A stretch of DNA of 41,760 nt, from positions 1-41,760 of the forward strand of contig JAHLFS010000017.1 in NCBI GenBank assembly GCA_018883675.1, read 5' to 3'. Each line of letters begins with the position of its first letter. The stretch's first letter is position 1. This document shows positions 26,524 to 36,283 of this stretch, piece after piece. A model generated the notes under the pieces. It saw nothing but the letters and a program-made list of their open reading frames with translations. It was not told where the DNA came from and did no database searches. The translations under genes and the position numbers were made by a program. Origin of the DNA: Candidatus Paralactobacillus gallistercoris (GTDB lineage: Bacteria > Bacillota > Bacilli > Lactobacillales > Lactobacillaceae).

Positions 26524-26550
26524 AATAAAACTCCTTTCCTAATTAAAAAC

Positions 26551-26602
26551 AATAAAAAAAGTGCTTTCCATCCAAACTGGTAAGTTTGGATAAAGCACTT
26601 TG
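26551..26602 (-). terminator. Terminator hairpin inside the mnmE leader
   Basis: A very strong stem: 10 base pairs (AAAGTGCTTT with AAAGCACTTT), a two-base bulge, then 9 more (ATCCAAACT with AGTTTGGAT), with a GGTA loop. Seven T follow on the minus strand. The only gene on minus reached by this transcript is mnmE, 28 bases further on, so the hairpin lies in the mnmE 5' untranslated region and should end most transcripts unless prevented. Confidence 0.8.
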
Positions 26603-26613
26603 ACTACTTTATC
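26589..26613 (-). promoter_or_regulatory. Alternative hairpin competing with the mnmE terminator
   Basis: On minus, GATAAAG (26607-26613) can pair perfectly with CTTTATC (26589-26595). The second arm is also part of the terminator's 5' arm, so the two structures exclude each other, as in attenuators. No ligand or protein binding site is recognised. Confidence 0.4.
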
Positions 26614-26640
26614 GAGTTATTAATAAGAATGATTAATTAC

Positions 26641-26668
26641 AATATATCATGTTTTCTATATTTGTCAA
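26641..26668 (-). promoter_or_regulatory. Promoter of mnmE-mnmG
   Basis: On minus, a perfect -35 TTGACA (26663-26668) and -10 TATATT (26641-26646) with a 16-base spacer. Transcription from about 26634 gives a leader of roughly 110 bases containing the hairpins described. Confidence 0.7.
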
Positions 26669-26773
26669 TTTTAGTAAAACTTCATAAAAATGTGCCATAT
26701 AATAAAGATGTTTACGATTACATAATATAATTAAAGTAATAACAATTAAAAAAATATCAGAAAGGATAATGAA

Positions 26774-27142
26774 ATGGCCATTTTTGTATACGAAGACAAA
26801 CGGGCTAAAATTCCATTTTATGAGTGGCGTAATAAAATGAATGCCAAAGAGCCAAGTATTGCGCATAAAATTGATGATATGATTGCAATGATGCAAAACA
26901 AGACATTACCATTAGAACGTCCCCGCGTGAAACGCATGCTAGCCCGGTTGCCTTACCGCGATTTATTTAAAATCCGCTTGGGCAAATACCGCTTATTCTT
27001 CCTATTTAAGGATGATGATTATTACTTATTGCACGCATTTCGCAAATCTAGTCAACGTACGCCGGAAAAAGAATGCCGCTTAGTAGCGCGTGAGATTGAA
27101 GCAAATCACTATACTACTTATCATGAGCAGAAAGGAGATTAG
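26774..27142 (+). CDS. RelE/Gp49-like toxin-family protein, copy 1
   Basis: The 122-residue basic protein fits the phage-derived Gp49-like/HigB branch of the RelE superfamily. These are mRNA-cleaving toxins normally paired with a helix-turn-helix antitoxin. Family features are an N-terminal strand and PFYEWRNKM helix, the VKRMLARLPYRDLFKIRLG segment (family pattern: linker to K-x-L, then Y-E-L-R), a YRLFF strand, and the LLHAFRKSSQRTPEKE signature before a C-terminal helix. GAAAGGA lies before the ATG. No antitoxin gene is adjacent; a close paralogue follows after 5 bases. Activity is not shown; it could be a domesticated nuclease. Confidence 0.75.
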   Translation: MAIFVYEDKRAKIPFYEWRNKMNAKEPSIAHKIDDMIAMMQNKTLPLERPRVKRMLARLPYRDLFKIRLGKYRLFFLFKDDDYYLLHAFRKSSQRTPEKECRLVAREIEANHYTTYHEQKGD

Positions 27143-27147
27143 TAATA

Positions 27148-27519
27148 ATGGCCATTTTTGTATATGAAGATAACCGGGGCAAAATACCTTTTTATGAATG
27201 GCGTGATAAAATTGCGGCTAAAGATCCAAGTATTTATCGCAAAGTCCAAGATATGATTGCAATGATGCGACAGCAAAATTTGCCGTTAACCCGGCCGTTA
27301 GTAAAACGAATGTTATTGCGCTTACCATACCGTGATCTTTATAAAATCCGGTTAGGTAAATACCGCTTAATGTTTTTAGCTGATGGCGGTGATTACTACC
27401 TACTACACGCTTTTCGGAAAACAACACAGCAAACGCCAGAAAAAGAACGTCACATTGTTTCCCGGGAAATTGAACGTCATCAATACTTACCATATCAAGA
27501 CATGACCGAAAATCATTAA
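27148..27519 (+). CDS. RelE/Gp49-like toxin-family protein, copy 2
   Basis: A paralogue of the preceding gene: about 80 of 114 aligned residues are identical by hand count. Both proteins start MAIFVYED and share PFYEWR, DMIAMM, RLPYRDL, KIRLGKYRL and LLHAFRK. The 123-residue protein carries the same LLHAFRKTTQQTPEKE signature. AAAGGAG lies just before its ATG, inside the end of copy 1. The divergence argues for an old tandem duplication with both copies kept intact. The next gene, a PTS permease, starts 15 bases after its stop. As with copy 1, no antitoxin is visible. Confidence 0.75.
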   Translation: MAIFVYEDNRGKIPFYEWRDKIAAKDPSIYRKVQDMIAMMRQQNLPLTRPLVKRMLLRLPYRDLYKIRLGKYRLMFLADGGDYYLLHAFRKTTQQTPEKERHIVSREIERHQYLPYQDMTENH

Positions 27520-27534
27520 TAAGAAGTTATATTT

Positions 27535-28851
27535 ATGAATGTTATTAAGTTTATCGTTTACCAAGTATTAAGTAATGAAACCCTTTTTTTAGGCATTATT
27601 GCGTTAATTGGCTTATTATTTCAACGTAAAAACCTCTCAGAAACTGTCAAAGGTGTAGTACATACTATTGTTGGCTTTGCTATTTTAATGGCGGGCGTTA
27701 ATATTTTAATTAATTCCTTATCACCAGTCATTACGAAATTAAATGCCACTTGGCATGTTCATGGGGTACTACCAACTAATGATGCTGCGTTTGGCATCGT
27801 CATGCATTTCAACCAGATTGCTAATGATGTTATTCTTACTTTCATCTTAGCTTTTATAATTCATTTGTTTTTAGTCAAAATTACTCCCGGCAAGTTATTT
27901 AAAAATGTCTACCTAATGGCGCAGATGATGCTTTACCTAGCCGCTTTTCTCAATGTTACGATTCCAACTGTATTACACACTAATAATTGGGAAACAGTTA
28001 TTATTGGCGCAGTATTAAGTGCTCTTTATTTAACTTATTCACCGGCTATTACACGTTATTTGGCCCGTCATTGGATGCATGATACCACTTTGGGGTTTAT
28101 GGACCAAGTGGGCGCAATCATTGCCCATTATGTGGGTAAATGGTGTGGTAGTCGTGATCCCCAGCAAGATGCTGATAATATGCGCTTACCTAAGTGGGCC
28201 AGCATGTTTAAAGATGATACTGTCATGTTATTTTTTGTTATGCCCTTAATTTTTATTGGCATTGGCTTAGCCGTAGGACCACATGGCATTCAGCAACTAA
28301 TGGGGCATACTGCTACCAACAATAACTGGATTATCTGGTTAATTTTACAAGGCATTAACTTCACGGCCGGCATTGTTATTTTGATGTATGGCGTTAATAT
28401 GTTTATTGCTGCGATTGTACCAGCTTTTAAAGGTATTTCTGAAAAACTATTGCCTGGTGCAATTCCCGCTTTAGGTGCACCAACCATTTTCCCATATTCA
28501 CCAATGGGCGGAATGTTTGGCTTTTTGGGTTCATCAATCGGTTGTATTTTAGTAACCATCTTAACCATTACTTGTCATGCTCCCGTAATCGTTTTTCCAA
28601 GTCCGATTATTATGTATTTTGACGGTATGGTAATGGGCATTTTTGGTAATAAGGCGGGCGGCTGGCGTGGCGCACTTGCAGCTGGTTTCGTAACGGGCAT
28701 GATTTCTTCAGCCGCCGTGATTTTATTCTATCCTTTAACTGGCAAGATGTTTGGATCCGGGCTGACTTGGTCTAATATTGATTACGCGGTGGTTTGGATG
28801 CCCATTTTATACCTATTAAAAGGAATTCGGATGTTAATTTTACATATTTAA
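27535..28851 (+). CDS. Ascorbate-type PTS EIIC (UlaA/SgaT family)
   Basis: The 438-residue membrane protein has about 11 helices and resembles the UlaA family, the membrane IIC channel of the L-ascorbate phosphotransferase system: GLLFQRKNLSETVKGVVHTI near the start, GFAILMAGVNILINSLSPV, FNQIANDVILTFILAF, then FPYSPMGGMFGFLGS and MYFDGMVMGIFGNKAGGWRG. No EIIA or EIIB gene is adjacent, so it would need partners encoded elsewhere or be specialised. The ribosome binding site is weak (AAGAAG). Its closeness to the RelE-like pair suggests one transcript. The substrate is unproven. Confidence 0.82.
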   Translation: MNVIKFIVYQVLSNETLFLGIIALIGLLFQRKNLSETVKGVVHTIVGFAILMAGVNILINSLSPVITKLNATWHVHGVLPTNDAAFGIVMHFNQIANDVILTFILAFIIHLFLVKITPGKLFKNVYLMAQMMLYLAAFLNVTIPTVLHTNNWETVIIGAVLSALYLTYSPAITRYLARHWMHDTTLGFMDQVGAIIAHYVGKWCGSRDPQQDADNMRLPKWASMFKDDTVMLFFVMPLIFIGIGLAVGPHGIQQLMGHTATNNNWIIWLILQGINFTAGIVILMYGVNMFIAAIVPAFKGISEKLLPGAIPALGAPTIFPYSPMGGMFGFLGSSIGCILVTILTITCHAPVIVFPSPIIMYFDGMVMGIFGNKAGGWRGALAAGFVTGMISSAAVILFYPLTGKMFGSGLTWSNIDYAVVWMPILYLLKGIRMLILHI

Positions 28852-28852
28852 C

Positions 28853-28878
28853 AAGGTTACGTACCACGTAGCCTTTTT
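28853..28878 (+). terminator. Terminator after the EIIC gene
   Basis: AAGGTTACGT / ACGTAGCCTT, a 10-pair stem including one G-U pair, a three-base loop and five T on plus. Confidence 0.75.
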
Positions 28879-28897
28879 ATTATCGCCAGTAGTAAAA

Positions 28898-28911
28898 TTA
28901 GGACTGCCTAA
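28898..28911. promoter_or_regulatory. DtxR/MntR-like operator before mntH
   Basis: TTAGGACTGCCTAA is a palindrome TTAGG-N4-CCTAA flanked by A and T runs, matching the core recognised by DtxR-family metalloregulators (IdeR, DtxR, ScaR/MntR types). It lies upstream of the predicted mntH promoter, consistent with manganese-dependent control. The regulator gene is not in this window. Confidence 0.6.
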
Positions 28912-28940
28912 AATTTGTTTTTATTATAACTAATCTGCTG

Positions 28941-28946
28941 TATAAT
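28941..28946 (+). promoter_or_regulatory. -10 box of mntH
   Basis: A perfect TATAAT lies 30 bases before the mntH ATG. The -35 region is a poor T-rich match at 28918-28923. Confidence 0.5.
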
Positions 28947-28976
28947 GTTATTGAAATTTAATTATGAGGTGAATAT

Positions 28977-30587
28977 ATGAAAGACCAAGTTTCTAAACAT
29001 AACGAACAATTAACTAGTCATAAGCAACGGGCCATCGCTCATAAACATCAATTAATTGAATATGCCAACGGCAAATCATTAGAAGAAATTAATGGTAGTG
29101 TTGAAGTACCTAAAGGCAAGGGGTTTTGGCGTACTTTGTTAGCATATTCTGGTCCGGGTGCCTTAGTTGCGGTCGGTTATATGGATCCAGGTAACTGGTC
29201 AACATCAATTACTGGTGGGCAAAACTTCCAATATTTATTAATGTCAGTGATTTTAATGTCCAGTTTAATTGCCATGCTATTACAATATATGGCAGCTAAA
29301 CTAGGCATTGTAACCCAAATGGACCTTGCCCAAGCAATTCGCGCGCGCACTAGTCGTTCCTTAGGAATTGTTTTATGGTTACTAACCGAATTGGCAATTA
29401 TGGCTACTGACATTGCTGAAGTAATTGGTGCCGCTATCGCCTTATACTTACTTTTCAAAATTCCACTAATCATCGCGGTATTTATTACTGTATTAGATGT
29501 TTTTCTACTATTATTACTTACTAAAGTGGGCTTCCGTAAAATTGAAGCATTAGTAGTATGCTTAATTATGGTTATTCTTGGTGTTTTTGTTTACCAAGTA
29601 ATCTTATCTAATCCCAACTGGGCCGCTGTTTTGAAAGGTTTTATTCCTTCACCCCAAATTATGGCAACGCATCCAGATATTAATGGGCAAACCCCGTTGA
29701 CTGGCGCTTTAGGAATTATTGGTGCCACGGTTATGCCACATAATCTTTACTTACATTCAGCTATTTCCCAAACCCGTAAAATTGACTATGGTGATGAAGA
29801 AAACGTAGCGCAAACAATTAAATTTACCTCATGGGATTCGAATATTCAATTAACGATGGCTTTCTTTGTTAACGTTTTACTATTAATCATGGGTGTTTCT
29901 GTATTCAAAACCGGTGCTGTTAAAGACCCATCATTCTTTGGGTTATACCAAGCATTACATAATCCGGCGACCGTCAGCAATCATGTCTTAGCGACTGTTG
30001 CGCGATCAGGCGTATTATCATCATTATTTGCCGTGGCTTTACTTGCGTCGGGACAAAATTCAACCATTACTGGTACACTAACCGGTCAAGTCATTATGGA
30101 AGGTTTCGTACACATGCGCATGCCGCTATGGCTACGTCGGCTAGTAACCCGGTTATTATCAGTTGTTCCGGTCCTCGTGTGCGTTTTAATGACTAAGAAC
30201 GATTCGCCATTGCAAGAACACATTGCTTTAAACGACCTAATGAATAATTCGCAAGTCTTTTTAGCCCTAGCTTTACCATTTTCAATGTTACCGTTAATTA
30301 TCTTAACCGATAGTGCTAAAGAAATGGGCCGCTTTAAAAACTCACTATGGGTGAAAATTGCCGGTTGGGTAGCTGTTATTGCTTTAACTATTTTGAATAT
30401 TATCGGTTTACCTGATCAAATGGTATCATTCTTTAGTGACAATCCCACCCATGCCCAGGTATTATTAGGACATCGGGTTGCTTATGTTTTAATCGTTTTA
30501 ATGATTTTACTTCTCACATGGACAATTATTGAACTATGGCACAGCAGTAAACATTTACAACCAAATCAAAATAAAAATGAGGAATAA
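28977..30587 (+). CDS. mntH: Mn2+ transporter MntH (Nramp family)
   Basis: A proton-coupled importer of manganese and other divalent metals. The 536-residue protein has about 11-12 helices and the Nramp metal-binding signatures: the helix-1 motif DPGNW at residues 70-74 and the helix-6 motif ATVMPHNLYLHSA near residue 253. The usual transport-signature loop GQNSTITGTLTGQVIMEGF is also present. It is longer than a typical 420-450-residue MntH because of a hydrophilic N-terminal extension of about 50 residues, seen in several lactobacilli. A GAGGTG site precedes the ATG. A small gene follows after three bases. Confidence 0.93.
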   Translation: MKDQVSKHNEQLTSHKQRAIAHKHQLIEYANGKSLEEINGSVEVPKGKGFWRTLLAYSGPGALVAVGYMDPGNWSTSITGGQNFQYLLMSVILMSSLIAMLLQYMAAKLGIVTQMDLAQAIRARTSRSLGIVLWLLTELAIMATDIAEVIGAAIALYLLFKIPLIIAVFITVLDVFLLLLLTKVGFRKIEALVVCLIMVILGVFVYQVILSNPNWAAVLKGFIPSPQIMATHPDINGQTPLTGALGIIGATVMPHNLYLHSAISQTRKIDYGDEENVAQTIKFTSWDSNIQLTMAFFVNVLLLIMGVSVFKTGAVKDPSFFGLYQALHNPATVSNHVLATVARSGVLSSLFAVALLASGQNSTITGTLTGQVIMEGFVHMRMPLWLRRLVTRLLSVVPVLVCVLMTKNDSPLQEHIALNDLMNNSQVFLALALPFSMLPLIILTDSAKEMGRFKNSLWVKIAGWVAVIALTILNIIGLPDQMVSFFSDNPTHAQVLLGHRVAYVLIVLMILLLTWTIIELWHSSKHLQPNQNKNEE

Positions 30588-30590
30588 TCA

Positions 30591-30806
30591 ATGGAATTAA
30601 ACGAATTACGAACCGAACAAGATAAAGTTTGGTATGCCACTATGAACCTAGTCCCCCAGGGTTTAGGAGCTGATGAAATTTGTCAAAAAGTTGACCTAAC
30701 ACCGCAAGAATATTATCGTGAATTAGCTTATCACCCTGAATATGCGCGTCCCCATGATTTTGATGAATGGGTATGGGCACATCGGCTTAAAATTGATCCA
30801 TATTAA
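30591..30806 (+). CDS. Small protein downstream of mntH, possibly DUF2316-like
   Basis: The 71-residue acidic protein begins only three bases after mntH, so it is almost certainly cotranscribed. It reads LVPQGLGADEICQKVDLTPQ followed by EYYRELAYHPEYARPHDFDE and ends LKIDPY. The first part looks like a helix-turn-helix, and the overall pattern weakly recalls DUF2316, a short family of unknown function. A GAGGAAT site precedes the ATG and a strong terminator follows. The link to manganese is positional only. Confidence 0.6.
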   Translation: MELNELRTEQDKVWYATMNLVPQGLGADEICQKVDLTPQEYYRELAYHPEYARPHDFDEWVWAHRLKIDPY

Positions 30807-30810
30807 AAAC

Positions 30811-30841
30811 AAAAAGGACTTAGCAAAGCTAAGTCCTTTTT
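30811..30841. terminator. Bidirectional terminator between mntH and LysM units
   Basis: AAAAAGGACTTAGC / GCTAAGTCCTTTTT, a 14-base-pair perfect stem with a three-base loop, serving the mntH operon on plus and the LysM gene on minus. Confidence 0.9.
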
Positions 30842-30864
30842 AATTAATTGAATAATTGCTGTTT

Positions 30865-31953
30865 TTAGTACCAACCATGTGCTTGACGGAATGCTAAGGC
30901 ATTTTGTACAGAGCCATAACGTTGGTTGCAATATTGTTGAAAGACGCGGTCTTGGTTAGCAGCTGATAAATCACCATGCAAGTATGAAATATCTAATTGA
31001 TACTTACCATAGTAACGACCATTACGAGCAGTATAACTACCACCTGATTCAGCTTGGGCAATCGCATTAGCAGCGGCAGCAGCTGAACCAGTAAACGTAG
31101 TTGTTTGTGGTTGTTGTTGTGCTTGCCGCACTGGTGTTGATTGGACATTGTTGCGCACTAGTGTTACCCGTTGTGCGTAGTTATTATAATGAACTGGTGT
31201 TTGTTTAGGTTGAACATGCACAGCTGGTGTTGCTGAAGCAACTGAAACTGCTTTAACAGCGGCACTTGGTGCTTTACTTACGGCTTGACTAGCTGCTGAT
31301 GCGATTGATTTAGCAGCACTTACAGCTGAAACTTGTGATGGTTGTTGTGAAGCCGCACTTACTGGTTTAACAGTTGTTGATGTTGCCACTGATTTAGCAG
31401 CACTCATTGCTGAAACCTGCGATGGTTGTTGTGAAGCAACACTTACTGGTTTAACAGCTGCTGATGGTGCGACTGATTTAGCGGCACTAGCAATAGAAAC
31501 TGCCTTAACAGCAGCACTAGTAGCAGGTGCTACATAAGCATTAGAAGCAACAGCGGAGGTCGCAACTGGTTGTGGCGTCATCCCTGGCATTACTTTTAAT
31601 ACTTGACCAATGTAGATAGTAGTACCGTTAATGTTATTTAATTGTTGTAAAGCGGCAACACTGGTGTGATATGTTTGTGCCAAACCAGACAAAGTATCGC
31701 CTGCTTTTACAACAACTGTTTGATAATTATTTTGATCAGGAAGATTTAATTTACTTCCAATTTGTAACTTATAAGGGTTAACGTTATTAAGTTGTTGTAA
31801 TTTAGCAACACTCGTATGATTAGCAGCAGCAATTTGGGATAAAGTATCACCCGCTTTTACTGTAACAGTAGCTGCATGCGCTGCCATTGGGGCAGTTGTC
31901 ATTAAGCCACCGGCCGTCATTGTTGTAAATGCTAATAAAGTCTTAACTTTCAT
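30865..31953 (-). CDS. Secreted LysM protein with Rpf-like C-terminal domain
   Basis: The 362-residue protein has a signal peptide (cleavage probable after AAHA, near residue 27) and two LysM peptidoglycan-binding repeats (about residues 29-72 and 78-122; both have VKAGDTLS and an LNN segment). A long Ser/Ala/Val-rich low-complexity linker follows (about 125-290), with an imperfectly repeated 30-residue unit containing VKPVS and [10 protein letters not shown]. It ends in a transglycosylase-like domain, [11 protein letters not shown] to FRQAHGWY, where the glutamate of QAESGGSY is the likely catalytic residue. This matches aggregation-promoting-factor and resuscitation-factor-like proteins of lactobacilli, which act at the cell wall. 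Confidence 0.85.
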
Positions 31954-32103
31954 AAACTAAATTCACCCTATTTGTTTTATTGATCTTTTTCTATCGTAAT
32001 ATATTTGTTCATAAAAAAGGTGAAAAAAGGGCATATGCAATCAGAGTTTAATCTATTTGTTACACGGTTGTAATATTTTTAATAACTTCAACCGCTTTTT
32101 ACG

Positions 32104-32131
32104 TTCATTATTAAAACAATAAGTGTATAAT
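32104..32131 (+). promoter_or_regulatory. Promoter of the ClC gene
   Basis: -35 TTCATT (32104-32109) and a perfect -10 TATAAT (32126-32131) with a 16-base spacer; GATAAGAAGG lies before the ATG. Confidence 0.55.
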
Positions 32132-32166
32132 TTTGCTGTAAGTTATTTAATGATAAGAAGGTTTTT

Positions 32167-33579
32167 ATGAAGATGCAAAAATCAGCTAAAGACGTGCTTA
32201 ATGCACCTTTTAAAACACAAAATATCATTTTTGTCTTTAAAGGCACAATTGTAGGACTCATCACCGGCATTATTGTTAGTGCCTTTCGTTTAATTATCGA
32301 TAATACTTTAAAACTACTATATAAAGTATATCCATATATGGTTCATCATCCCCAAACTATTATTTTATATGTCATTGGAACTTGCATTTTATCATTAATC
32401 TTAGGTTTCATTATTCGTCCCCAATTACTATATGTAAAAGGTTCCGGAGTACCACAAATTGAAGCCCAAATGGAAGGAAAAATTCGAATTAAGTGGTGGC
32501 CGGTTTTATGGCGTAAATTTGTAGGCGGCTTACTAGCAATTTGTCCCGGCTTATTTCTTGGCCGGGAAGGTCCTTGTATCCAAATGGGCGCTTGCGTTAG
32601 TCAGGGGATTTCGGAAGAAATTTTTCGCAGTAATCCCAATGAAGAGCGCATTATGATTTCATGTGGTATTGCGGCTGGTTTATCAGCTGCTTTTAGTGCT
32701 CCTATTGCCGGTGCATTATTCTTATTAGAAGAAATTACGTTTAGTTTTTCACCATTAGTATGGTTAACCGCCCTTGCTTCTTCATTAGCAGCTGATTTTG
32801 TTACTTTATTAGTTTTTGGATTAACACCAAGTTTACACTTTACTTATGATTTTAGTATTCCTGTTAATCAATACTGGCAATTACTTTTATTAGGAATAAT
32901 CCTGGGATTATTTGGTTATTTATACCAACGAGTAATTTTAAATTTGTCAAAGTGGTACGGCAAAATCAAGTTTATTCCTACCGCCTGGCATAGCATTATT
33001 CCATTATTATTAGTCATTCCTATTGGCTTGTACTATTGCAAAATTCTTGGTGGTAGTCATGATTTTATCCTTGATATCACTAGCCAACATTTCATTCAAT
33101 ATTTATCAGATAGCTTACCAGCCGTTGGTTTTTTGACAATCTTATTAATAATTCGGTTTGTTTTTTCGATGGTTTCATATGGGGCATCGACACCGGGTGG
33201 GATTTTTATGCCGATTTTAGTCCTTGGTGCCACTAGTGGTGCTTTGTATGCTAGCATTATGATTCATTTAGGTTTATTAAAGGAAGTTTATTTCTTAAAT
33301 ATTATTATCTATGCAATGGCCGCTTACTTTGGAGCGATTGAAAAAGCACCCTTTACAGCAATTATTCTTATTTCTGAAATGGTTGGTAGTATTAAACACA
33401 TGATGCCTTTACTAGTAGTAACGTTAGTTGCTTATCTAGTTAATGACTGGTTAGGTGGCCGACCAATTTACGGTGCTTTAAAAGACACGATGAATTTCAC
33501 TAAAAATCCAGCGGCAGAAAAATTATCAACATGGTTTAAGCATCGGCAACGCCAATGGCGTAAAAAACATCTCGCATAA
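32167..33579 (+). CDS. ClC-family chloride channel or H+/Cl- exchanger
   Basis: The 470-residue membrane protein has all three ClC selectivity motifs: GSGVP near residue 96, GREGP at residues 132-136 with the gating glutamate 134 present, and GGIFMP near residue 345. About 10-12 helices are visible, and the typical GAIEKAPFTAIILISEM follows. No C-terminal CBS domains are present. In bacteria such proteins support extreme acid resistance or anion balance, which fits the acid-stress genes elsewhere in the window. Whether it is a channel or an exchanger cannot be decided here. Confidence 0.92.
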   Translation: MKMQKSAKDVLNAPFKTQNIIFVFKGTIVGLITGIIVSAFRLIIDNTLKLLYKVYPYMVHHPQTIILYVIGTCILSLILGFIIRPQLLYVKGSGVPQIEAQMEGKIRIKWWPVLWRKFVGGLLAICPGLFLGREGPCIQMGACVSQGISEEIFRSNPNEERIMISCGIAAGLSAAFSAPIAGALFLLEEITFSFSPLVWLTALASSLAADFVTLLVFGLTPSLHFTYDFSIPVNQYWQLLLLGIILGLFGYLYQRVILNLSKWYGKIKFIPTAWHSIIPLLLVIPIGLYYCKILGGSHDFILDITSQHFIQYLSDSLPAVGFLTILLIIRFVFSMVSYGASTPGGIFMPILVLGATSGALYASIMIHLGLLKEVYFLNIIIYAMAAYFGAIEKAPFTAIILISEMVGSIKHMMPLLVVTLVAYLVNDWLGGRPIYGALKDTMNFTKNPAAEKLSTWFKHRQRQWRKKHLA

Positions 33580-33580
33580 T

Positions 33581-33620
33581 AAAAAATAGCGGATCAAGTA
33601 AAAATTGATCCGCTATTTTT
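33581..33620. terminator. Bidirectional terminator
   Basis: AAAAATAGCGGATCAA / TTGATCCGCTATTTTT, a 16-base-pair stem with A and T runs on both sides, between the convergent ClC gene and DUF4176 gene. Confidence 0.92.
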
Positions 33621-33622
33621 AA

Positions 33623-33937
33623 CTACTTAACATTATCAGAACTAAGTTCTTCCATGGTAAAGCGATGGTACTTAACATTACCTAATTGTTCATTCATTTG
33701 AGCCACTAATTGGGCTTCAGCTAGTGATTGATAACCCCGAAAGCAAACTTCGGCAATATCTTCATGATTAAAAAAGAAATGTTGATTATGGTAAACACCC
33801 TCGGGATATAAACAACTATCATATTCAAAATAACCATCTTTACCATTAAACGTTGCAATCGGAAAACGCGTTGTAATCATTAACGGTTGATCACTATTTT
33901 TTAACTTTACGACAGAACCAATCGGTAATAATTGCAT
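33623..33937 (-). CDS. DUF4176-family protein
   Basis: The 104-residue soluble protein matches the DUF4176 pattern: LLPIGSVVKLKNSDQPLMI, then the Tyr/Gly segment DGYFEYDSCLYPEGV and FFNHEDIAEVCFRGY. Two ATGs are possible. I use 33937 because AGAAGG is about 8 bases from it and only about 2 from the one at 33943. DUF4176 genes often accompany type VII secretion loci, but nothing of that kind is present, so here it is a stand-alone gene of unknown function. Confidence 0.8.
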   Translation of the reverse strand: MQLLPIGSVVKLKNSDQPLMITTRFPIATFNGKDGYFEYDSCLYPEGVYHNQHFFFNHEDIAEVCFRGYQSLAEAQLVAQMNEQLGNVKYHRFTMEELSSDNVK

Positions 33938-34014
33938 GATCATAACCTTCTTATATGTAGTTTTAACAATATATTATTATACTCATTTCGTCATTTACTG
34001 CCTATGAGTAGCGT

Positions 34015-34020
34015 TATAAT
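34015..34020 (+). promoter_or_regulatory. -10 box of pepO
   Basis: TATAAT lies 30 bases before the pepO ATG, with AAGGAGG between. The -35 match is weak. Confidence 0.45.
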
Positions 34021-34050
34021 AAAAACATATATTTTATTAAGGAGGAAATT

Positions 34051-36000
34051 ATGAACACACAATACATTGTGGGTGGTGCAAGTGTCACCGCGGCGCAAAA
34101 TGCCAGTATCAAAGATAACTTATACATGCATGTTAACGGCGCATGGCTTGAACAAGCAACCATTCCCGCCGATAAGCCCGTTACGGGTGGCTTTCAAGAT
34201 TTAGCTGATGACGTTGAAAAAACGTTAATGCATGATTATCAAGCTTACCATGACGGCAAGTTTACTGCTCCTAATCCGATGTTTGCAGAAGCAATGAAAT
34301 TACATACGCTTGCCAGTGATTTTACTAAACGTGATGCTGATGGTATTACCCCATTAAAACCATTAATTGCCCAAGTACTTGCTCTTAAAAATTTAAAACA
34401 ATACGACGAACAATTAGGCGACTGGTTACTAAACGACATGCCATTACCATTTTATGTCTCGGTTAGTCCTGATTGGAAAGATACTACACGACACGCCGTT
34501 TTTGTTGAAGCACCTAGTTTAATTTTACCTGACAAAACTTACTATGCTGATAATAATCCGGCTGGTCCCCAATTATTAAAAGTATGGGCCCAAATGTCAC
34601 AACAATTATTACAAAAGTGTGGCTTTACTGCTGATCAAGCCCACCGTCATGTTGAAAATGCCCTAGCTTTTGATCGGGCTTTGGTTCCTTACGTGATGAG
34701 TTCTGAAGAAGCAGCGGATTATCCTAAGCAATATAATCCACAATCATTCGCTAAATTCATCAGTAATAGCCATTTTCTATCTTTAGACAACTTATTAAAC
34801 ACCGTTTTACCACAGCAACCACAACAAGTGATTGTTACTAATCCTAAGTTCTTCCAAGCCCTTGATCAAATTATTAATGATCATACTTTCGAACAACTTA
34901 AGAGTTGGTTATTAATTGACGTCGTTAACAGTTTTAGTGGTTACTTAAGTGAAGAATTACGTCAATTATCCGGCATGTTTAATCGGGCATTAGTTGGTAG
35001 TCAACAAGCCATTTCACAAGCCAAACATGCTTATCGTTTAACAACAAGTGTCTTCAGTCAAGTAATTGGCGATTATTATGGACGGAAGTATTTTGGCGAA
35101 GCTGCCAAAACCGATGTAACTGCTATGGTTCAAAAAATGATCGCGATTTATAAAAAACGGTTGCAAAATAATAACTGGCTTAGTCCCGCAACCCGGGATA
35201 AAGCAATTTTAAAACTTGATAAAATCGTAATTAAAGTCGGTTATCCTGATAAAATTAAACCAATTTACCAAAAGTTCCACGTGAAAACGGCCGCTGCTGG
35301 AGGGACATTACTCGAAAATATTTTGCATTTTAATAAGATTAGTATTGCTGACAACTTGGCAAAATTTAATCAAGATGTTGATCGCAGTATTTGGGGCATG
35401 CCGGCCCAAATGGTAAATGCAATGTATGATCCATCACGCAATGACATTACTTTCCCCGCTGCTATTTTGCAAGCACCATTTTATAGCTTGCAACAATCGG
35501 CTAGTGCTAATTACGGCGGCATTGGTGCGGTAATTGCCCATGAAATTTCGCATGCCTTTGATAACAATGGTGCGCAATTTGATGAACTTGGTAACCTTAA
35601 TAATTGGTGGACAAAAGATGATTACGCTCATTTTAAACAATTAACCCAAGCCATGATTGATGAATTTGATGGCATTGCTTTTGCTGGCGGCAAAGTTAAT
35701 GGTAAATTGGTCGTTTCGGAAAATGTTGCTGATTTAGGTGGCTTAAGTTGTGCCTTAGAAGCTACCAAACATGAAGAACACTATAACTTAAAGGAATTCT
35801 TTATTAACTGGGCAACAATTTGGCGTATGAAAGCACGGCCGCAATATCAACAAATGTTGTTAGCAGCTGACGTGCATGCTCCGCACGAATTGCGTGCTAA
35901 CGTGCAACCACAAAATTTTGCTGAATTTTATGAAACATTTGATATTCATGAAAACGATGGCATGTGGTTAGCACCTGAGAAGCGGGTACAAATTTGGTAA
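34051..36000 (+). CDS. pepO: Endopeptidase PepO (M13 metallopeptidase)
   Basis: PepO is a zinc endopeptidase of the neprilysin family that cuts oligopeptides in the cytoplasm of lactic acid bacteria. The 649-residue protein has the N-terminal M13 domain (DNLYMHVNGAWLEQATIP) and a catalytic domain with the zinc motif HEISH at residues 497-501. The third zinc ligand lies in ENVADLGG, and NAMYDPSRNDITFPAAIL is the usual substrate-site segment. There is no signal peptide, as expected for the lactic acid bacterial enzyme. A strong AAGGAGG precedes the ATG and the gene stands alone. Confidence 0.96.
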   Translation: MNTQYIVGGASVTAAQNASIKDNLYMHVNGAWLEQATIPADKPVTGGFQDLADDVEKTLMHDYQAYHDGKFTAPNPMFAEAMKLHTLASDFTKRDADGITPLKPLIAQVLALKNLKQYDEQLGDWLLNDMPLPFYVSVSPDWKDTTRHAVFVEAPSLILPDKTYYADNNPAGPQLLKVWAQMSQQLLQKCGFTADQAHRHVENALAFDRALVPYVMSSEEAADYPKQYNPQSFAKFISNSHFLSLDNLLNTVLPQQPQQVIVTNPKFFQALDQIINDHTFEQLKSWLLIDVVNSFSGYLSEELRQLSGMFNRALVGSQQAISQAKHAYRLTTSVFSQVIGDYYGRKYFGEAAKTDVTAMVQKMIAIYKKRLQNNNWLSPATRDKAILKLDKIVIKVGYPDKIKPIYQKFHVKTAAAGGTLLENILHFNKISIADNLAKFNQDVDRSIWGMPAQMVNAMYDPSRNDITFPAAILQAPFYSLQQSASANYGGIGAVIAHEISHAFDNNGAQFDELGNLNNWWTKDDYAHFKQLTQAMIDEFDGIAFAGGKVNGKLVVSENVADLGGLSCALEATKHEEHYNLKEFFINWATIWRMKARPQYQQMLLAADVHAPHELRANVQPQNFAEFYETFDIHENDGMWLAPEKRVQIW

Positions 36001-36077
36001 TAATACGCAACAAAAAGCAGCACGTTAATTAATAATTCCAAATATAAACTATCTGCATTGGATAGTTATCAAAAAAA

Positions 36078-36115
36078 TAAAACGGAACATCATGTTGCAT
36101 GATGTTCCGTTTTTT
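36078..36115 (+). terminator. Terminator after pepO
   Basis: AAACGGAACATCATG / CATGATGTTCCGTTT, about 15 base pairs with a TTG loop and six T on plus. Confidence 0.9.
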
Positions 36116-36168
36116 GACAACAATATATTTTGTTGCATATTGGTATACCTTAAAATGACCTTAATAAT

Positions 36169-36195
36169 AAAAAAAGCGGACATTAAAATGTCCGC
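36169..36195 (-). terminator. Terminator after jag
   Basis: GCGGACAT / ATGTCCGC with a four-base loop, followed by seven T on the minus strand, about 90 bases past the jag stop. Confidence 0.85.
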
Positions 36196-36283
36196 CAAAT
36201 AATCTGCATCGGATACCTTTGTAAGGTACACTTTTATCATATAACGATTATCTGCATAAAACTAATTTCTAGCTTCAATTTAA

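Follow-up and report, generated by a model that had tools for sequence, protein, structure and literature searches.

Tandem HigB-like genes without a HigA partner in a Lactobacillaceae genome, and the antitoxin-free clade to which they belong

Can toxins of the RelE type persist stably in a genome without an antitoxin, and if so, what renders them safe? This question is raised by two adjacent genes of a gut lactobacillus whose products belong to a family of mRNA-cutting bacterial toxins. They lie in a window of 41,760 nucleotides (the whole stretch of DNA that was analysed), which gene names assigned from the translated products place as the dnaA-gyrB-gyrA-rplI region in the genome of a member of the Lactobacillaceae. 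Solitary toxins have already been reported as annotations (for example, PMC4861877), and one orphan toxin, OrtT, which belongs to a different family, has been the subject of its own study (PMC4344625), so the kind is already known. Stable keeping of RelE-type toxins without an antitoxin has rarely been testable, however, because solitary copies are usually dismissed as debris; in a 2025 survey of the superfamily, they were filtered out before the analysis (PMC11980606). The literature searches that we made found no published description of the clade to which the two genes belong.

The features of the locus are these:
26524..26773, no strand assigned: upstream gap up to mnmE, with no antitoxin ORF and no Rfam RNA
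26774..27142, + strand: copy 1, HigB/Gp49-like protein without an antitoxin, 122 amino acids (PF05973 40.3 bits; AlphaFold2 pLDDT 90; Z 14.3 to Streptococcus pneumoniae HigB)
27148..27519, + strand: copy 2, HigB/Gp49-like protein without an antitoxin, 123 amino acids (PF05973 43.3 bits; 69% identical to copy 1; AlphaFold2 pLDDT 88.7)
27535..28851, + strand: EIIC-GAT (ascorbate-type) PTS permease (PF03611 264 bits; terminator scan)
28853..28875, + strand: terminator-like hairpin 3' of the PTS gene, a 10-pair stem with a T tail

Both copies are intact open reading frames on the + strand, spaced 5 bases apart, each with a Shine-Dalgarno-like stretch before its ATG (AGAAAGG and AGAAAGGAG), and their products are 69% identical over 118 residues, much as the initial annotation had described them (intact, about 70 percent identical, with good ribosome binding sites). 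Upstream of copy 1, on the opposite strand, are mnmE and mnmG. The PTS permease gene starts 15 bases downstream of copy 2, with no terminator-like site found between the two in our scan, and is possibly the third gene of the same transcript; it is not conserved next to relatives of the pair. The hairpin at 28853..28875 is weak evidence on its own, because shuffled sequences yield about as many in the scan. The pair belongs to about 9.6 kb of genes (window 26600-36200) interrupting the usual jag-mnmE neighbourhood near the origin, which also include the PTS permease gene, mntH, pepO and genes for a LysM protein and a chloride channel. The mnmE leader, on the - strand at 26558-26668, contains a long hairpin followed by a T run, which looks like a terminator or attenuator and has no Rfam match; a promoter-like site (TTGACA-16-TATATT, 26668-26641) lies on one side of it and the start codon of mnmE (26523) on the other.

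The assignment of both proteins to the RelE/Gp49 family, made originally from the letters of the sequence, held up in profile searches and structure prediction. Both score above the curated cut-off of 23.9 bits for PF05973 (Gp49/HigB-type, RelE/ParE superfamily), and copy 2 finds S. pneumoniae HigB, a toxin with a solved structure (6af3), at an E value of 3.4e-7; these scores and this match mark the two as true homologues and not chance resemblances. No further PF05973 match was found in their own genome (1.16 Mb, 87% complete), and searches of the copies against NCBIfam and the PADLOC defence profiles gave nothing relevant and no match, respectively. The AlphaFold2 models of both are confident. 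The best structural match of the copy 1 model is S. pneumoniae HigB (2.0 A over 107 residues), followed by M. tuberculosis HigB1 (Z 11.4) and other RelE-type toxins, among them ribosome-bound RelE (Z 9.1); as modelled, copy 1 has the RelE/BECR fold with a long C-terminal helix.

Eight species of the Ligilactobacillus aviarius group each carry a single close relative of the pair (about 69% identical), and two other genera, one within the Lactobacillaceae (G027) and one in another Lactobacillales family (G317), each have two more distant members (about 43% identity) at dispersed positions. These, together with the window pair, make up the clade. No additional members were found in 398 Lactobacillaceae and 399 Bacilli genomes, which are even draws from larger groups; in the Bacilli set, searched at E 1e-12, matches beyond the window came only from one Lactobacillales genus (g43), in genes adjoining HigA. 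In a tree of 59 rows, made by a quick method and having long branches and many other open forks, the 11 distinct clade members form one group (SH-aLRT 98), and the split between the window pair and the L. aviarius genes is left open. The initial annotation had proposed looking for the same tandem among relatives, and it does not recur. Since the relatives have either a single copy or scattered ones, the tandem is most readily explained as a lineage-specific duplication, with that fork open in the tree. A mobile origin was considered and rejected: the nearest phage and plasmid matches are 28-30% identical, no phage or plasmid was seen to carry the clade itself, and the relatives on viral contigs are distant and have HigA beside them. 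In the 1.3 Mb genome of G317, where the two solitary HigB-like genes are L099 and L100, one of them is just downstream of glmM, past a strong terminator-like hairpin.

No partner gene is conserved across the clade. In seven of the eight L. aviarius-group species (L003-L008, L054), a GreA-family gene directly follows the solitary gene, probably in one transcript with it; this arrangement is absent from the avistercoris genome, G027, G317 and the window. The adjacency may hint at a role around stalled gene expression, although the link is missing in the other genera.

The absence of an antitoxin, already remarked upon in the initial annotation, was confirmed and proved to extend to the whole clade. 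We built a HigA profile from 14 neighbours and ran it on every ORF of 151 sequences, taking 500 bases as the limit of adjacency, and found no HigA-like ORF within that distance of copies 1 and 2 on either strand. An antitoxin in the 250-base upstream gap was rejected, as the ORFs there are at most 33 amino acids long and have no ribosome binding site; so was an antisense antitoxin, as the 91-residue reading frame opposite copy 2 is closed in the genes of L. aviarius and G027. HigA lies within 500 bases of none of the 11 distinct clade members, versus all 48 of the other intact Gp49/HigB relatives retrieved, some of whose neighbours were included in building the profile, although it owes nothing to most of the 48. 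In the paired relatives, HigA is mostly downstream on the same strand with an overlap of a few bases. The clade thus lacks the adjacent HigA-type antitoxin gene by which a type II higBA module is recognized.

The proteins of the clade retain a catalytic core and differ from paired toxins at a small number of positions. In S. pneumoniae HigB, R68, R73, F90 and K92 matter for RNase activity and their mutation weakens it, while E66 is dispensable in vitro (PMC7984235). M. tuberculosis HigB1 requires K58, R68, R77, K95 and K99; the alanine mutant of K99 is non-toxic, E66A partly inhibits the toxin in vivo, and the P-site tRNA is touched by R61, where strand 1 ends (PMC9098466). Clade residues R68, R73, F89 and K91 align with the S. 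pneumoniae set and K53 with M. tuberculosis K58, and all five are invariant in the 11 distinct proteins. Position 66, by contrast, is Lys in all 11 and Glu in 47 of the 48 paired proteins; an insertion between strands 1 and 2 with an invariant Arg58 is present in 11/11 and 0/48, respectively; and the second Lys of FxKK is replaced in nine clade members versus five paired proteins. By analogy with R61 of M. tuberculosis HigB1, the Arg58 loop may face the ribosome. At position 95, corresponding to M. tuberculosis K99, copy 1 has Arg and copy 2 Gln, so that the two may differ in strength; the L. aviarius group and one of the G027 proteins have Lys there, and the remaining members Thr or Ala. Net charge is 8 to 17 in the clade versus a mean of 5.2 in the paired proteins, and position 19, which corresponds to M20, a HigA contact in S. 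pneumoniae HigB, holds Arg or Tyr in 7 of 11 clade members versus Leu, Ile or Met in 44 of 48 paired ones. The clade is under purifying selection: dN/dS is 0.11 between copies 1 and 2 and 0.02-0.04 for the two pairs from the L. aviarius group whose dS was computable. These values are rough, as most comparisons approach or exceed saturation at synonymous sites.

The anatomy of the locus and of the clade is well supported; the activity we infer only from residues. As no antidote gene lies beside these genes or their closest relatives, the protein is probably retained as a toned-down cellular regulator and not as one half of a toxin-antitoxin pair. The explanation that we favour, tentatively and with slightly less than an even chance of being right, is that the window contains a tandem duplicate of a HigB-like protein working without HigA, which would be an attenuated ribosome-directed RNase regulated by its expression. 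Such a protein would still enter the ribosomal A site and cleave or block mRNA there. Its activity would be lowered or altered by the change of E66 to K, the loss of the second Lys in FxKK and the Arg-bearing insert between strands 1 and 2, which would modify the pocket and the surface facing rRNA or tRNA while keeping the catalytic core. The cell would tolerate the protein unpaired because its activity is lowered or altered or its dose is low, the dose being set by transcription and translation instead of an antitoxin, and the protein would regulate translation or the decay of mRNA. The domesticated role that was among the initial suggestions fits with this, given that the clade as a whole lacks antitoxins, evolves under purifying selection and sits in chromosomal surroundings. 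Against attenuation, the kept catalytic residues also fit a fully active toxin under unseen control, E66 was dispensable in the S. pneumoniae enzyme in vitro, and the window's own genome is 87% complete.

The same residues can be read as those of a protein that cleaves no RNA and instead binds the ribosome or RNA as a translation or stress factor. The catalytic pocket is changed by the E66 to K replacement and by the loss of the second FxKK Lys in most members, and the Lys or Arg at the M. tuberculosis K99 position is missing in copy 2 and in three of the four G027 and G317 proteins; we nevertheless judge this somewhat unlikely, as the Arg/Phe/Lys residues that matter most in S. pneumoniae HigB are invariant, and a pure binder would have no need of them. 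The kept catalytic residues would suit a full toxin whose neutralising antitoxin, HigA-like or of a new kind, is encoded at another site, as would the generic XRE/HTH proteins present in all carriers. Control of this sort, another of the initial suggestions, gained little from whole-genome searches. The HTH proteins elsewhere in the window's own genome match the HigA profile weakly (best 34.7 bits, in the HTH part), and six carriers whose entire genomes were searched, one of them a single contig and another 99% complete (G317), yielded matches mostly limited to the HTH part (best 42 bits), with none full-length; G317 gave a single match of just 25 bits, in a 280-codon frame. The exception is an L. 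aviarius genome (G303) with a canonical HigB-HigA pair (L066 7212-7849) besides its solitary HigB-like gene, where an antitoxin acting in trans is possible because that pair sits elsewhere in the genome. With the HigA-contact position 19 now Arg or Tyr in most members as well, we consider neutralisation from elsewhere unlikely.

That the products of copies 1 and 2 regulate each other as a heterodimer, also suggested at the outset, would suit two adjacent and probably co-translated genes, and G027 and G317 likewise have two copies per genome. As a general explanation it is weakened by the single copy in eight L. aviarius-group species, by the distance between the copies in the other two-copy genera and by the apparent lineage-specific duplication in the window (that fork being open in the tree), and we rate it as quite improbable. 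An RNA antitoxin made at the locus, in the style of type I or III, seems more improbable still. Although the 250-base, A+T-rich upstream gap folds better than shuffled sequences (z -3.45), its fold energy derives largely from the mnmE-leader hairpin; no type III-typical repeats were seen on reading the gap, it has no Rfam match, and the upstream regions of relatives are short and unrelated. The absence of an antitoxin might finally suggest the remnants of a decayed toxin-antitoxin module, but intact ORFs, low dN/dS and invariant catalytic residues across several genera largely refute this, and we give it hardly any weight.

Returning to an attenuated regulator, a bolder version, which we regard as possible if doubtful, is that the clade is a distinct, antitoxin-independent Lactobacillales HigB subfamily serving as a chromosomal translation regulator. 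It would be made safe by the E66 to K change and the Arg-bearing, ribosome-facing loop, and its co-transcription with GreA in the L. aviarius group would link the rescue of ribosomes with that of RNA polymerase. Whichever version is considered, the clade offers a clean contrast, all solitary versus all paired with few separating residues, and this contrast reduces the question of persistence and safety to a handful of expression and mutation tests.

Among known systems, S. pneumoniae HigB (PF05973; 6af3, 6af4) shares with the window proteins its fold, the catalytic R68/R73/F90/K92 and an N-terminal YxD..G..P motif, but it has HigA as its partner, carries E66 and FxKR, is without the Arg58 insert and is about 25% identical. 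M. tuberculosis HigB1 of the TAC system (7nbu, 7awk) likewise has the same fold, with counterparts of its K58, R68, R77, F93, K95 and Q98 in the window proteins; it differs in belonging to a three-gene module with HigA and a SecB-like chaperone and in having E66, while its Lys99 counterpart is only partly kept in the solitary clade. The canonical higBA modules of Lactobacillaceae, Streptococcus and other Lactobacillales (L017-L040, L073-L096) share the Pfam family and the catalytic core, but every intact one has HigA beside the toxin, and most of the clade-specific residues differ. OrtT of E. coli is an unrelated membrane protein of the GhoT family, although it does set a precedent, being a member of a toxin family that is retained with no antitoxin and modulates growth (PMC4344625).
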